A stretch of DNA of 39,618 nt, taken from positions 1-39,618 of the IMG/VR virus record IMGVR_UViG_3300047496_000183. One strand, written 5' to 3'. This DNA is from a virus. Below, in pieces: positions 6,961-35,049 of this stretch; within the stretch, counting starts at the first letter, position 1; each line of letters opens with the position of its first letter. The translations under genes and the position numbers were made by a program. The notes beneath the pieces are model-generated. The model searched no databases, was not told the DNA's origin, and was given only the letters and a program-made list of their open reading frames with translations.

Positions 6961-7635
6961 TTATACCGGTGTTATTGTTCCTACGCTGTAATCTACAATC
7001 CATATAGTGTTAGCTGTTGTACACACAAGGTGTATACAATCTCCTATACCCGTAGAAGTTAATGATCCACCTGTACCTACAGTTGTAGCATTTGTTCCGG
7101 TGCGAACCTGTTGACCCGCTGTTTGAGCAATCCTCCAACCACCCGCTCCACTTGGTCGAATCACTTCAATCACGTCCCCCACAGCAGATGTTGCCGGCAA
7201 AGTCAATGTTTGCAGAGCCGCTGCTGTAACTATATATCCGTTATTCACGCTCATAGTTTGGGTAGTTGCGTTATTATTCCAAGTAAACGAAGTAGATCCT
7301 GTAGCAGATATTGTTAAAGTATTACCAGATCCCGCAACAGTAATAGATCCAGAGCCTACAACATTAACATTGCCAGAAGTAGGAGAGATGGCTCCTCCGG
7401 TATTCCCGGTAATTGTTGCTACACCTGATGTAGAAATAGAAGGAGATATTTGAGACCACACTCCAGCCCCAGATGTTACGTATAAAATTTTAGTAACTGA
7501 ATTTAGCCATGTAGTATCTGGATTTTTTATATCCGTCGATGTAGGGTTTCTTTTTGCAGTTACTAAAGGGGGATTTTGATAATAATCAATCCCAACATGA
7601 CCTAATGGATTTTCAGCCAGGGAAGCTATTGACAT
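6961..7635 (-). CDS. First adhesin of the operon, with distinct N-terminus and shared C-terminal module
   Basis: The 224-residue protein begins MSIASLAENPLGHVGIDYYQ. Its N-terminal 65 residues (NPTSTDIKNPDTTWLNSVTK, then GVWSQISP) resemble short virion-attachment segments that describe an expected datum and a trailing W in many phage fibres. A Ser/Thr/Gly linker follows (GSGSITVAGSGNTLTI), then the shared module (MSVNNGYIVTAAALQTLTLP, GWRIAQTAGQQVRTG, TVGTGGSLTSTGIGD, TANTIWIVDYSVGTITPV). It is the promoter-proximal gene of the cluster, directly downstream of the TTGACA-N17-TACTTGAAA promoter at 7672-7700. A role as baseplate-proximal adaptor is possible but only inferred from its first position and unique N-terminus. 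Confidence 0.75.
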   Translation of the reverse strand: MSIASLAENPLGHVGIDYYQNPPLVTAKRNPTSTDIKNPDTTWLNSVTKILYVTSGAGVWSQISPSISTSGVATITGNTGGAISPTSGNVNVVGSGSITVAGSGNTLTISATGSTSFTWNNNATTQTMSVNNGYIVTAAALQTLTLPATSAVGDVIEVIRPSGAGGWRIAQTAGQQVRTGTNATTVGTGGSLTSTGIGDCIHLVCTTANTIWIVDYSVGTITPV

Positions 7636-7671
7636 GGATTAAACCTGAAGTTGTATTTGTCCTATTCATTT

Positions 7672-7700
7672 CAAGTAGAACTTCTGTATTTACATGTCAA
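7672..7700 (-). promoter_or_regulatory. Promoter of the adhesin operon (TTGACA-N17-TACTTG)
   Basis: On the minus strand, TTGACA (7700-7695) is followed after exactly 17 bases by TACTTGAAA (the -10-like hexamer is 7677-7672). The ATG of the first adhesin is at 7635. The same layout, with the same -35, spacer length and TACTTGAAA, precedes the capsid operon at 19151-19179. TACTTG is far from the usual TATAAT, so a modified or phage-directed polymerase may recognise it. Confidence 0.7.
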
Positions 7701-7832: not shown

Positions 7833-8294
7833 ATGAGTACAGAACTATACAGACAAGATCTTTGTGAATGGTGTGATCTTCAAATAAATCTAATGAAAAC
7901 TAGGCAATTTGAAAATTTGGATATTGAAAATTTGATAGAGGAAATACAAGACTTGGGCGATTCGAGAGCTAGTGAATTAGAAAGCTGTTTATGTGTGTTG
8001 TTTATGCATCTTCTTAAATGGAAATACCAACAACATCTCAGGAGTAAATCTTGGATATCCACTATCCGTGAACATGCTAGACGAGTACAAAAAAGACTTA
8101 AAAAAACTCCTAGTCTTAAACATCGTCTTTTAGAATTAGCAGAAAGTGCTTATGAAGATGCTCGTTGGGATGCTCATAAAGAAACTGAAATAGAGGAGTC
8201 AATATTTCCTTTGATAAATCCATTTAACATTTCAGAAGTATTGACTACTGACTGGTTAGAAAAGTGGAAAACACATCAAGACAACCTCCTATAG
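7833..8294 (+). CDS. DUF29 family protein
   Basis: This 153-residue protein matches the DUF29 pattern along its whole length. It has YRQDLCEWCDLQINLMKTRQ, NLDIENLIEEIQDLG, RASELESCLCVLFMHLLKW, then SKSWISTIREHARRVQKRL and AYEDARWDA. DUF29 proteins are small helical proteins of unknown function, commonest in cyanobacteria and some other Gram-negative bacteria; a copy in a phage is unusual and suggests capture from a host. A good ribosome binding site (AAGGAG) precedes the ATG by 8 bases. It is a lone plus-strand gene in a minus-strand region, with its own upstream TATAAT and inverted repeat. Its last 19 bases overlap the convergent KTSC-domain gene. The biochemical role is unknown. Confidence 0.85.
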   Translation: MSTELYRQDLCEWCDLQINLMKTRQFENLDIENLIEEIQDLGDSRASELESCLCVLFMHLLKWKYQQHLRSKSWISTIREHARRVQKRLKKTPSLKHRLLELAESAYEDARWDAHKETEIEESIFPLINPFNISEVLTTDWLEKWKTHQDNLL

Positions 8295-18063: not shown

Positions 18064-19032
18064 TTAAGAAGTTGTAACGTTTAATCCGGAGATCCAGTTT
18101 TGATTCGTAATCGCCCGAGCAAGCGCAAACTTGGCGTACATCTGAGCGTTTTGAGCCACACTAGAAACCACCCAATCGGGTCTCATCCCTACGCGAGCTG
18201 TGTAGGTGTTCTGTTCGACCTTGGTAAACGCTTCTAGGCCATACATAGGAATCCGGTAGATTGGATTGCCTAGTGTAGAAACCGTTGGAGCTATAATCCC
18301 TTTAGAAGATACAAAGCACCTAAAACGGGAAATGGAGCAGTATTCCTCAGGTCTTAACCCCTCTTGTTGTGGGTAAGCATTCTTGAGGATCACTCCTTGT
18401 ACGTTCTGTAGATCTGTAGTGACATTGGTGTGAGCGAGAGCTATGAATGCATCTCGGGTCGGTGATGTCGCAAACTTATCCATCGCGTCCACACTTTCCA
18501 GCATGGTTCGCGCGTCGTTTCCTAAAAGGATGCGCTCGATGTTGTTGCAATCCGCACGGGATATATTAGTTGGAGAATCTCCGTTATTTCCTCCATAAGC
18601 ATTAAGGTACGATGGGCTAGAAGCCAGAAGATCTCTCATTAGTAGATCTTCCTTTTCCCGAAGCCACTGACCTAAGAGCGCAATAAACTTCGTCATGACT
18701 TTGTCATTTTCGAAGAGTGTGACCTGCTCGTTTACGACCACAGTCTTGGCGTAAAGTTCGGTAGTTGCGTCTACGTCTGTACGGACAGGAATTTCAGGAG
18801 CCGGATCTATACCCGATCCATCTAGTTGACCACCATCTGTGTTGAGTCTTTCATAGCGACTCATACGAGTCGTTTTTCCCAGGTGAGCCTGAGCAGTATG
18901 TAAATCCGCTCCAAATGAATGGATCAGGTTAAACATTGGGGTTGACAATAGATCCTCACTCCACTGCAAAGGAAGCTCGGGGGACATATTGAAAATATTG
19001 GTGATGCCTGTAGAGGCAGTAACAGTTGACAT
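18064..19032 (-). CDS. Major capsid protein (N4 gp56 / P22 coat type)
   Basis: The 322-residue protein has the pattern of the N4 gp56-like branch of HK97-fold coats. It begins MSTVTASTGITNIFNMSPEL, followed by FGADLHTAQAHLGKTTRMSR. The segment TELYAKTVVVNEQVTLFEND is followed by a helix carrying LLGQWLREKEDLLMRDLLAS. Later come DAFIALAHTNVTTDLQNVQG and a C-terminal region with YGLEAFTKVEQNTYTARVGM. The order scaffold, capsid, decoration, adaptor, tail tube matches a podovirus head module. The gene has its own TTGACA-N17-TACTTGAAA promoter and a 5' leader of about 110 bases, fitting high expression. Confidence 0.82.
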   Translation of the reverse strand: MSTVTASTGITNIFNMSPELPLQWSEDLLSTPMFNLIHSFGADLHTAQAHLGKTTRMSRYERLNTDGGQLDGSGIDPAPEIPVRTDVDATTELYAKTVVVNEQVTLFENDKVMTKFIALLGQWLREKEDLLMRDLLASSPSYLNAYGGNNGDSPTNISRADCNNIERILLGNDARTMLESVDAMDKFATSPTRDAFIALAHTNVTTDLQNVQGVILKNAYPQQEGLRPEEYCSISRFRCFVSSKGIIAPTVSTLGNPIYRIPMYGLEAFTKVEQNTYTARVGMRPDWVVSSVAQNAQMYAKFALARAITNQNWISGLNVTTS

Positions 19033-19086
19033 GGGCGTTCTCTCAGTTCTGTATTTATCTGGTTGCGAAGCAGATAACGCGAACGG

Positions 19087-19109
19087 AGAGCGATCCCGTG
19101 TAACGCTCT
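19087..19109 (-). promoter_or_regulatory. Hairpin in the capsid mRNA leader
   Basis: AGAGCG (19087-19092) and CGCTCT (19104-19109) can form a 6-bp stem with an 11-base loop in the untranslated leader between the promoter (19151-19179) and the capsid ATG (19032). Leader hairpins often stabilise abundant late mRNAs; that role is inferred here. Confidence 0.4.
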
Positions 19110-19150
19110 AGGGAATTAGAAAAACAAAGTGTTTCGTTCTTCTATTTTTT

Positions 19151-19179
19151 CAAGTAAGGTATACTGTTTGAATTGTCAA
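19151..19179 (-). promoter_or_regulatory. Promoter of the capsid operon (TTGACA-N17-TACTTG)
   Basis: On the minus strand TTGACA (19179-19174) is followed after 17 bases by TACTTGAAA (the -10-like hexamer is 19156-19151). This is the same architecture as the adhesin promoter at 7672-7700. The plus-strand gene for the sigma-like protein starts at 19200. A plus-strand TTGTCA (19173-19178) overlaps this -35 element, so the two transcription units may be controlled together. Confidence 0.7.
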
Positions 19180-19199: not shown

Positions 19200-19820
19200 A
19201 TGCATATTAAGAGAAAAAGAGAACCTGGATTAGTCACAGCAAAGTTTGAAAATTCCGATATTGACCTGAATGAATGTAATGAATTTATTAAAAACTGGAT
19301 GTGGTACGCATTAATTGTGTGTTCTGCCGTAGCTAAAATAAGAAAAATAACAGATAGGAATCTTTGTTTAAGTGCAGCAATGGAGGCTTGTTATGTGGCT
19401 TATTGCTGTCCTAATAGATTGATATTCCGTGATATAAAGTGTTTAATTCAATCTGAGTGTAAAAGATGTATTTACCACAGCATGATTCGTTTTGGACATA
19501 CTCCTGATAGGAAGAGGGTTTATTTCCCATCTCAGTGGGTAAGTCTTGAATATTTTCAGCTTTATTATAATAAACCTCATTTTGAACATTTAGACATGGG
19601 TTACTTACTAGACTCTCCAGTATTTACAGAATCAGAAAAGATTTTTATAAAATTATTTTTGAAAGGACATGACCCGATAGAAATATCAAAAATTACTGGA
19701 TATGGTAGTCGATGGGTTCATCAATGCTTTCAAAAGCTGAGAGGAAGATTTAAGGATTGCAAAGAGGTAGAATTTTTTCCAAAAGAAAAATGGGGAGCAA
19801 TCGGGCCTCGTAAAAAATAG
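19200..19820 (+). CDS. Sigma-factor-like transcription regulator (regions 2 and 4 suggested)
   Basis: In this 206-residue protein, residues 142-183 (FTESEKIFIKLFLKGHDPIE, then ISKITGYGSRWVHQCFQKLR) have the spacing of a sigma-70 region 4 helix-turn-helix. Residues 45-95 (DRNLCLSAAMEACYVAYCCP, then LIFRDIKCLIQSECKRCIY) can be aligned with the core-binding helices of region 2. The match is by eye and diverged. The gene is divergent from the capsid operon with an overlapping -35 region. No ribosome binding site precedes the ATG, and TAAAAT ends one base before it, so the mRNA may be leaderless. A late-gene sigma or another HTH regulator is possible. Confidence 0.55.
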   Translation: MHIKRKREPGLVTAKFENSDIDLNECNEFIKNWMWYALIVCSAVAKIRKITDRNLCLSAAMEACYVAYCCPNRLIFRDIKCLIQSECKRCIYHSMIRFGHTPDRKRVYFPSQWVSLEYFQLYYNKPHFEHLDMGYLLDSPVFTESEKIFIKLFLKGHDPIEISKITGYGSRWVHQCFQKLRGRFKDCKEVEFFPKEKWGAIGPRKK

Positions 19821-19826
19821 TTCATA

Positions 19827-20588
19827 CTATCCCTGCATCACCTTTCTCATTCTAGCCCAGTTATCCTTCTTCCTCTGATCAGACAGTATTGACGGAGCAC
19901 TATCGCCTGTCTCTGTGAGCCCTGGGATAGAGATAGAACGCGGTTTCTTGTCGTTTTGCTCCATTCTCCTCTCATCTTTCTTGCTCATAGGATTAGGAAT
20001 CGTCTTTTTGACAAATTTGTAGATTGCCAACCACTTATTCATATCGTTCTTAGCCGATTGAAACGCCTTGGACATCTCTGGCTCATGGAAATCGACGTAA
20101 TCTAGGTTCTCTTGGGTACACACTTCGTTGAAATCGGGGTGAACAGACAAGATTCTATCCCTAATAGAAGCCTGTTCGCGCGCTTCGGCTTCATCTCTCT
20201 CTATCTTTCTAACTCTTTCCAGCTCCGCGCGCACTAGATCCTGAACCCTCTTTTCTTGGAGTTCTTTTTCGTTTATATCAAGATCATCTGGGTTGTTTTG
20301 TTTCTTTAACAACGCTTCCATAGCAGCTTCCATAGCCTTGATCTGGGTTTCTTGCGCATGCCGCTCCCTTTCCCGAGAAAGTTTCTCTTGTTCCATTTCC
20401 TTCTCTCTATCGGCCATTCTCTTGCGCTCAGCTTCTCTTTCTTTGCGAAACCTACGAAAATTTACGGCTGACGGAGACTCATCAACACCTTCTTGAGGAT
20501 TTTGTTGATTGGAAACTTCTTCTTTGGTATCTATTTGCGGAGTAACATTTAAATTTTGTTCTTGTAAGGTAGGATCTGTATTAACCAT
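19827..20588 (-). CDS. Scaffolding protein
   Basis: The 253-residue protein is highly charged and almost entirely helical. A long Glu/Arg/Lys coiled coil spans about residues 45-140 (RRFRKEREAERKRMADREKE and following), and the basic tail ends DNWARMRKVMQG. It has a Gln/Asn-rich acidic start (MVNTDPTLQEQNLNVTPQ). This composition, and its place between portal and major capsid genes, is typical of capsid scaffolds that are removed during maturation. ATG 20588 is chosen because AGGA lies about 6 bases upstream; the frame is open to 20633, which would run into the divergent gene at 20620. Confidence 0.8.
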   Translation of the reverse strand: MVNTDPTLQEQNLNVTPQIDTKEEVSNQQNPQEGVDESPSAVNFRRFRKEREAERKRMADREKEMEQEKLSRERERHAQETQIKAMEAAMEALLKKQNNPDDLDINEKELQEKRVQDLVRAELERVRKIERDEAEAREQASIRDRILSVHPDFNEVCTQENLDYVDFHEPEMSKAFQSAKNDMNKWLAIYKFVKKTIPNPMSKKDERRMEQNDKKPRSISIPGLTETGDSAPSILSDQRKKDNWARMRKVMQG

Positions 20589-20619
20589 CTGATTTCCTAA
20601 TTTATTTTTTTTTAAAGGT

Positions 20620-20907
20620 ATGGAAGACAACACGCAAGCCGAAGCTCAAGACACTCATCGCATTAACAAAAAATCTATACAAGCAGATCTGGAACACTAT
20701 GCGAAGACAATGAAATACATGGGTGCAGATATTCCGATTCAATGTTTGTGCCTTCCTAAAGATCTCGAGTCTTTCCTCCTTAAAAGGAATTTTTTTAGAG
20801 TCTACGACTTACTGGACGACCGTTTTAAAAGCGTCAAAGGGCTTGGAAAGAAACGGGCAATCATTCTGGCTTCTAAACTTTATGATGTTTTCTCTATAGA
20901 GACTTGA
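20620..20907 (+). CDS. RNA polymerase alpha-CTD-like helix-hairpin-helix protein
   Basis: In this 95-residue protein, residues 41-92 (IQCLCLPKDLESFLLKRNFF, then RVYDLLDDRFKSVKGLGKKR, AIILASKLYDVF) follow the layout of the RNA polymerase alpha C-terminal domain. That layout is an LxLxxxxxxxLxxxxFxxxxDLL core ending in a helix-hairpin-helix with GLGKK. The N-terminus is polar. Such a protein could bind DNA or core polymerase partners. It is a plus-strand island between scaffold and portal. AAAGG sits close to the ATG. Its last 99 bases, encoding the GLGKK motif, are also the 3' end of the convergent gene at 20809-21378. A generic HhH DNA-binding protein is the alternative. Confidence 0.6.
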   Translation: MEDNTQAEAQDTHRINKKSIQADLEHYAKTMKYMGADIPIQCLCLPKDLESFLLKRNFFRVYDLLDDRFKSVKGLGKKRAIILASKLYDVFSIET

Positions 20908-21378
20908 CTTCTTGGATTCTTCGCGCGATAGATCGGTGATCTTCCACTGATCGCGAATCTTTTGGTGAAAATCTCTATTGTAAAAAGCATCACACCAATA
21001 CTTTGTCATCTTCCATACATCATCAACTAAGTCAGTGCTCGATATCACAGCCATTACAGCAGGACTTGGTAGCGACCATATCCTCTTCATCGAATCCAAT
21101 TTCTTTTCATACATACAAACCAATTGATTGGGACGAGGATCGGGCAAGAAGATATCTGCATAGAACTTTCTCCTTTGCAACCCCTTGATCAAGACATCTG
21201 TGCAAATCAACATAACAATAAAGAAATGAGGTTCCCCAATCTTACTAATGTGTGAATGGGCGCACTGTGTAAGATTTTCATACACCCCCTCCAAATCAGC
21301 CATAGCGATATCAAGAGGATCGTGAAAGCTAGTATCTTGACTCGCTTTAAAGCACTTTTCTCCTGCCGTGATCTTCAA
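20809..21378 (-). CDS. Hypothetical protein between portal and scaffold
   Basis: I recognise no family for this 189-residue protein. It is helical with several Cys and Trp residues (PHFFIVMLICTDVLIKGLQR, VDDVWKMTKYWCDAFYNRDF). The TTG start at 21378 is supported by AGGGAAG about 4 bases upstream and by an ATTGA overlap with the stop of the small gene upstream; ATG 21303 is the alternative. The last 33 residues are encoded antisense to the alpha-CTD-like gene and may be a recent extension. The position suggests a head-assembly role. Confidence 0.6.
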   Translation of the reverse strand: MKITAGEKCFKASQDTSFHDPLDIAMADLEGVYENLTQCAHSHISKIGEPHFFIVMLICTDVLIKGLQRRKFYADIFLPDPRPNQLVCMYEKKLDSMKRIWSLPSPAVMAVISSTDLVDDVWKMTKYWCDAFYNRDFHQKIRDQWKITDLSREESKKSSLYRENIIKFRSQNDCPFLSKPFDAFKTVVQ

Positions 21379-32769: not shown

Positions 32770-32950
32770 GCATTCCTCTTGTTTGGTTCTTTAAATTTAA
32801 TTACCACTTTGCTATCTTTTTGGTTCACAATTTTTTTAAACTTAGTCATGATCAAGATCAGATTTTGGAAAAATGTAAAGTATAATACATGTTGCATATT
32901 TAACGCAACTTTTAACATAATATCACTGTAAAAACTAGGGAAATAAGCAC
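32770..32950. promoter_or_regulatory. Divergent control region between RecT and the XRE regulator
   Basis: This 181-base AT-rich gap separates the two major divergent transcription units. A perfect TATAAT (32881-32886) faces the XRE gene. Just after it lies the inverted repeat GTTGC-N9-GCAAC (32891-32909), a likely operator for the XRE protein because it would cover the transcription start. No confident -35 or minus-strand promoter for RecT can be picked by eye. An early promoter region or an origin are both possible. Confidence 0.55.
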
Positions 32951-34770: not shown

Positions 34771-35049
34771 TTGTCACAAAAAATAAATTATAATTTTCCT
34801 CCAAAAGTAAAATTTGATATTTCAAAAAAATTTAAAGTTTCAAAGATGGACAATTGGTCCTTATCCATGAGAATAGGATGTATTACTGAAAGAATATTGA
34901 ATCAAGAAGATTTGTTTAAAAGGGGAAAATCTGATCGACTTAACCTTTTAATATTTGTTGGAGAAAGAAGAAGATTATTAAATATTTTAAAATCATGTAA
35001 TTATGAAAAATATATATCAATAATAAAAAAATTAGGATTAAGTACATAA
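34771..35049 (+). CDS. Small basic hypothetical protein (TTG start)
   Basis: The 92-residue, Lys-rich and helical protein (KINYNFPPKVKFDISKKFKV, later LIFVGERRRLLNILKSCNYE) has no recognised family. The only reasonable full-length start is TTG at 34771 with AGGA just upstream; ATG 34843 would give a shorter form. It ends one base before the C1q-like gene, suggesting co-translation with that gene. Confidence 0.5.
   Translation: MSQKINYNFPPKVKFDISKKFKVSKMDNWSLSMRIGCITERILNQEDLFKRGKSDRLNLLIFVGERRRLLNILKSCNYEKYISIIKKLGLST

Follow-up and report, generated by a model that had tools for sequence, protein, structure and literature searches.

A phage genome analysed here encodes a 95-residue helix-hairpin-helix (HhH) protein, P0002, which very probably has the fold of the C-terminal domain of the RNA polymerase α subunit (α-CTD). 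Its gene belongs to the core set of a large clade of uncultured tailed phages, in which it lies antisense inside the head module. Judging from sequence profiles and a predicted model, this α-CTD-like protein probably modulates the host polymerase without the sigma partner that had been proposed for it. An earlier note on the same DNA had envisaged a takeover set redirecting the host polymerase, made of a sigma-like protein, an α-CTD-like protein and a dedicated promoter class. The α-CTD-like member of this set stands; the sigma partner was not supported, and the promoter pair is real in the window only.

The window, i.e., the whole stretch of DNA analysed, is a 39.6-kb virus contig recorded as an uncultured tailed phage. 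Portal, capsid, terminase, helicase, RecE/RecT, and methyltransferase genes lie on its minus strand. Other uncultured IMG/VR contigs were the nearest relatives among those found, their capsid proteins being mostly 70–80% identical; cultured phages are far from this phage, and the capsid protein, used as a query for the host, gave no match in GTDB genome contigs. As the earlier note had stated, no RNA polymerase gene is visible among the window ORFs scanned with Pfam (a separate PF00940 search had silent controls), and both of the plus-strand ORFs that it named, 19,200..19,820 (P0001) and 20,620..20,907 (P0002), are present. An inverted repeat, GTTGCATATTTAACGCAAC, at about 32,890–32,910, flanked by the RecT gene on the minus strand and the early genes on the plus strand, is a possible operator.

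Fold and distribution of P0002

The window sequence of P0002 alone gave no meaningful match and no match to an α-CTD profile; its only viral match, L002, was rejected as a chance match of the N-terminal region. A profile of 67 distinct homologues was the basis of the comparison with PDB sequences. It gave 15 hits, the best 13 of which were all RNA polymerase α subunits, aligned in register (best E 0.0022), and RuvA, UvrC, NusA, and Rad51 gave no hit at E ≤ 10. Among the individual members, the commonest Pfam family was RNA_pol_A_CTD (PF03118; best E 1.8e-4), the window member being without a match; HHH_5 and IMS_HHH also matched weakly.

An AlphaFold model built from the alignment of the 67 members was of moderate quality (pLDDT 71, pTM 0.44), an earlier one from 11 sequences having been poor (pLDDT 61). 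The best compact match found by Foldseek was the Synechococcus α-CTD 9dvt, with a probability of 0.99, a TMt of 0.79, and 1.5 Å over 58 columns (E 0.37). The list consists mostly of α-CTDs, including those of H. pylori, B. subtilis, and Streptomyces, and RAD51-type N-terminal domains also appear in it. HhH domains are found in many DNA-repair and recombination proteins. It should be mentioned that the Foldseek E-values are weak (0.35 at best in PDB) because the domain is small. In BFVD, the matches were two uncharacterised phage proteins (36–39% identity) and several proteins annotated as RNA polymerase α C-terminal. The resemblance to α-CTD that had been noticed by eye at 20,620..20,907 was thus borne out by both profile and fold.

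The residues of the α subunit were mapped onto the 67 members via HMMER alignments. The position of R265 is Arg in only two of them and is mostly V, K, A, S, E, T, or P; that of N268 is Asn in 20, and that of K298 is Lys or Arg in 19. Gly is invariant at the positions of both N294 and G296, Arg occupies the S299 position in 54 members, and Cys occupies the E261 position in 65. This means that, of the 265 determinant (R265, N268, G296, K298, and S299), G296 alone is invariant in the family, and P0002 should therefore not read UP elements in the way α-CTD does. The α N-terminal domain, which serves core polymerase assembly, is also missing from the family, whose whole ORFs are 81–138 residues long. 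The canonical GxGxxR of the HhH hairpin is kept, and by its sequence this hairpin seems typical of non-specific HhH contacts.

These features bear on another reading, in which P0002 is an HhH nucleic-acid-binding protein for replication, recombination, or packaging, unrelated to polymerase. The retained GxGxxR together with the mostly lost 265 determinant, the weak HHH_5 and IMS_HHH matches, and the place of the gene in the head module are all consistent with such a role. However, in the profile search no other HhH protein ranks as high as the α-CTDs, which also top the fold search, and the annotated BFVD neighbours are α C-terminal proteins, so that we consider this role rather unlikely. A polymerase-directed role is preferred, and we infer from the residues above that P0002 looks more like a protein-docking mimic than like a DNA reader.

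The gene is situated antisense to the late genes, between two minus-strand head genes. One is the probable scaffold gene (19,827..20,633), whose role is assigned from its position just upstream of the capsid gene; its start is likely near 20,590, and it is divergent from the P0002 gene. The other is a conserved head-region gene, here called g208 (20,809..21,378), the 3' end of which overlaps the 3' end of the P0002 gene by 99 bases. Capsid similarity fetched 15 loci, 12 of which span the stretch from the scaffold-position gene to g208; all 12 hold there an antisense homologue of P0002, 37–43% identical. A second scan seeded with these homologues gave 80 loci, and every contig that extends far enough shows this arrangement. 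A homologue is present in all 19 near-complete relatives. In the region outside the g208 overlap, differences at the three codon positions of the P0002 gene number 2278/1231/4257, which shows coding selection in the P0002 frame.

Late promoters and the proposed sigma factor

Late operons had been said to use a shared promoter with an unusual -10, TACTTG. In the window this is correct for two sites, both on the minus strand. The promoter TTGACA-N17-TACTTGAAA lies at 19,148..19,179 (read 19,179→19,148), upstream of the major capsid protein gene (18,064..19,032, minus strand), the first gene after this promoter and its leader. A second exact copy lies at 7,669..7,700 (read 7,700→7,669), upstream of a late, tail-side gene (6,961–7,635). 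These are the two exact sites in the window, against 0.01 expected in shuffles. When the motif was loosened to three mismatches without the AAA, 60 sites were found versus 45.8 ± 6.9 by chance, i.e., slightly above it; therefore, only the two exact sites are secure. A DUF29 protein (7,833–8,294, plus strand; E 6.6e-44), the gene of which was not found in the near-complete relatives, adjoins the second promoter.

The -10 is not conserved in the relatives. When two blocks were modelled on the upstream regions of the capsid gene (61 sequences), the result was the same with or without a supplied -10: TTGnnA, a spacing of 17 in 70%, and then TGA-TA[ATG][TCA]TTGA (likelihood 100.8 vs 39.0 in shuffles). 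Read from these sequences, the capsid promoter of the clade has a loose -10, TAnnTTGA with a variable middle, and is compatible with host sigma70. TACTTG is absent from the capsid promoter site of L003–L017 and was found in the window genome only. In genome G016, the capsid promoter and the promoter of a 409-residue ORF have a common -10 region of their own, TTTTGATAGCGT. Such agreement within a genome could come from duplication, concerted change, or a co-evolving factor. The clade promoter matrix, when run across whole genomes, lacked the specificity needed to delimit a late regulon. Bacteroidota-type promoters have TAnnTTTG; a -10 of this type was considered and dropped, as the spacing of the T residues differs and many genes have Shine-Dalgarno-like sites.

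In the model of the earlier note, P0001 would be a sigma factor, which would now have to be a very divergent one, reading TTGACA-N17-TACTTG with the α-CTD-like protein as its partner. Both late promoters indeed have TACTTG, which relatives were not seen to carry at that position. P0001 is private to the window genome, like TACTTG, a pairing that rests on n=1. In addition, one relative (G023) carries a sigma region 3/4-like fragment. The sequence of P0001, its distribution, and the promoter itself, however, argue against this model, and we regard it as very improbable.

P0001 (19,200..19,820, plus strand) is a 206-residue orphan protein. It is probably a real gene, because an open frame of 206 codons is long in A+T-rich DNA; its G+C content is 33%, versus 43–47% in the flanking scaffold-position and capsid genes. 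No meaningful match was found in Pfam, NCBIfam, PHROG, or PDB sequences. As for sigma profiles, neither PF04542 (region 2) nor PF04545 and PF08281 (region 4) matched at E ≤ 10, and NCBIfam gave none; the same search let an HNH endonuclease-like protein reach TIGR02937 at 0.0028 via its HTH. Sigma70_r4, r2, and r4_2 found nothing in the window genome, with controls positive in 14, 11, and 14 of 14 genomes, respectively. Searches for P0001 homologues in IMG/VR (two peptide sets), INPHARED, PLSDB, and the related contigs gave none. The sigma region 2/4-like features ascribed to 19,200–19,820 were consequently not confirmed, there being no sigma profile match and no relative in the collections searched.

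Co-occurrence in relatives held for one partner only. The α-CTD-like gene is kept in all 19 near-complete relatives, P0001 in none of them, and TACTTG is lacking in relatives as well; a relative keeping the exact promoter without either gene was not seen. The interval between the scaffold-position and capsid genes, where P0001 lies, is empty or nearly so in L005, L008, and L010; in L004, L006, and L009 it holds HNH homing-endonuclease-like genes, and in the remaining relatives other small genes. P0001 is therefore cargo in a variable slot, and this position and its low G+C content both speak against the sigma model. The -35 TTGACA and the 17-bp spacing are those of an ordinary sigma70 promoter. 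On these sequence comparisons, P0001 is considered to be an unrelated accessory gene, not a co-conserved partner of the α-CTD-like protein.

Sigma region 4 matches in the relatives G022, G025, and G011 were rejected, their sequences being HNH endonuclease-like; the remaining ones are short HTH proteins or a PTS-like protein, except for the sigma-looking fragment in G023. This is an ORF of 187 residues (L098:1425–1988, minus strand; RpoD_Cterm E 5e-11), seen in one relative only. In L012, an int-alpA RNA (RF02996, above the gathering score) lies at 1550–1610 on the plus strand, between the scaffold-position and capsid genes.

Pseudoknots in the capsid leaders

The stretch between the promoter and the capsid start is here called the leader, and 64 upstream sequences were examined. 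Hairpins of at least three pairs with the loop NTCGYNA occur in 48 of the 64, at one to three each, compared with 0.03 per shuffled sequence; their stems vary in sequence. Most of them are preceded by the element XXC[ACT]G[AT], the first three bases of which pair with loop bases 4–6, in the combinations GGC-GCC, GAC-GTC, AGC-GCU, and TGC-GCA. With the anchor for this element picked regardless of whether its first two positions pair, both were found paired in 75 of 91 units versus 33.6 expected (maximum of 46 in 10,000 permutations). Among distinct units with a loop-final A, pairing is seen in 65 of 75 versus 29.6 expected (maximum 42). On a 53-unit set, seven pairs were 96% paired versus 26–40% when slid; this set was hand-thinned, with a few non-pairing rows dropped and the stem pairs selected, so that 75/91 and 65/75 are the fair numbers.

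Strict units are located almost only in capsid leaders. Looser ones, read by eye, stand ahead of the second late operon in G002, G003, G010, G011, and G016, and other loops are present in the leaders of several relatives, e.g., L045, L052, L054, L060, L065, L075, and L093. In the window, two units on the minus strand were assigned by hand after the clade pattern; the strict automatic scan did not find them. Unit A (19,084..19,108) is GAGC + CGGG(AUCGCUC)UCCG, with GAGC complementary to the loop GCUC. Unit B (19,055..19,080) is GCG + UUAUCUG[CUUCGCAAC]CAGAUAA, with GCG complementary to the loop CGC. The covariation strongly suggests that the capsid-mRNA leaders of most relatives carry an array of co-varying pseudoknots, previously undescribed. 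No Rfam family matches them; as an RNA element of the capsid mRNA, the array is clear and open to testing. The first XXC element lies near the expected transcription start in many genomes, and 5'-end protection, antitermination, or binding of a phage protein is therefore conceivable.

S15 binds a pseudoknot in its own mRNA. A 92-residue protein of the window (34,771–35,049, plus strand) matches ribosomal protein S15 (PF00312, E 1.1e-11, above the cut-off). As a binder of the leader pseudoknots it was set aside, since none of the 19 near-complete relatives has an S15 gene. Viruses encoding uS15 have already been reported (PMC6375957).

The capsid gene itself is split in L011, L012, L013, L014, L016, L024, L038, L041, L045, and others; the inserts range from tens of bases to about 1.1 kb, and their points of insertion differ. 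The insert of L038 gave a group I intron-like match (E 9.5e-5, below the gathering score).

Proposed mechanism and comparison with known systems

The explanation put forward here, tentatively and with a chance somewhat below even, is that P0002 is a stand-alone protein of α-CTD fold acting on host transcription and that the late promoters are read by the host housekeeping holoenzyme. P0002 would dock where the host α-CTD docks, i.e., on sigma region 4, NusA, or an activator; with nucleic acid it would make no more than non-specific HhH contacts. The late genes would probably be transcribed by the host polymerase from sigma70-type promoters, and P0001, an unrelated accessory neighbour, would play no part. 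As an outcome, the host polymerase might serve the phage late genes, or α-CTD-dependent host promoters might be disabled, or both. The universal presence of P0002 in a large clade, its odd antisense position, and the loss in most members of the DNA-reading residue point to a protein-docking mimic. The domain that it would mimic, α-CTD, is a regulatory hub of bacterial transcription.

A narrower form of this explanation, based on displacement of α-CTD, would make P0002 a host-shutoff inhibitor acting on sigma region 4, NusA, or activators and mainly repressing host genes. Mimicry of the fold without its DNA-binding determinant suits a decoy, and phage attack on the α subunit is already known, Rac of phiKMV-like phages leading to its cleavage (PMC7552054). 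Against this form, as against the broader explanation, no promoter of its own was found upstream of the P0002 gene, EM having given only the codon periodicity of the antisense scaffold-position gene; host shutoff as the main function seems unlikely. The action of P0002 might be linked to the leader RNA, although this is speculation: P0002 and the tandem-pseudoknot leaders could form one late-expression system, in which the leader is synthesised as soon as the promoter has been escaped and is read by host polymerase carrying the mimic, with processive (antiterminated) or stabilised late transcripts as the result. Such a system would require neither a phage polymerase nor a phage sigma factor; we hold it to be improbable.

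The late system of T4 comprises the sigma factor gp55, gp33, and gp45 (PMC2988020). Redirection of the host polymerase to late genes, the idea of the earlier note, would be common to both phages. However, the window phage gave no match to a gp55-like sigma profile, and its late promoter lacks a T4 late box, its -35 being of the ordinary kind.

Phages are known to make leader RNAs with effects on transcription or on the decay of mRNA: HK022 put, lambda nut, and the T4 gene 32 pseudoknot. The leaders of the present clade resemble them as structured RNAs at the start of a phage operon. They differ in occurring as tandem copies, in the pairing of the NTCGYNA loop with the upstream XXC, and in matching no Rfam family.

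Phage proteins annotated as 'RNA polymerase, alpha subunit, C-terminal' (BFVD A0A6J5MNY7, A0A6J5L490, and A0A6J5M7I6), as well as the likewise annotated A0A5Q2WLP1 of Mycobacterium phage Mithril, have the same fold as P0002 in the aligned part. They are longer (128–149 residues), with 12–24% identity and weak E-values. Although such proteins have been annotated, no study of a stand-alone phage α-CTD-like protein was found in the searchable literature. Compared with the α-CTD of RNA polymerase (PF03118; PDB 1doq, 9dvt, 2max, and 3gfk), P0002 has the same fold and helix order, and its L-x-L...L...G-x-G core is in register. In contrast, P0002 stands alone without an α N-terminal domain and is three residues shorter before the GxG hairpin. 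Its family has lost R265 in all but 2 of 67 members, carries a near-invariant Cys at the E261 position, and has a long N-terminal helix in which one Tyr is invariant.
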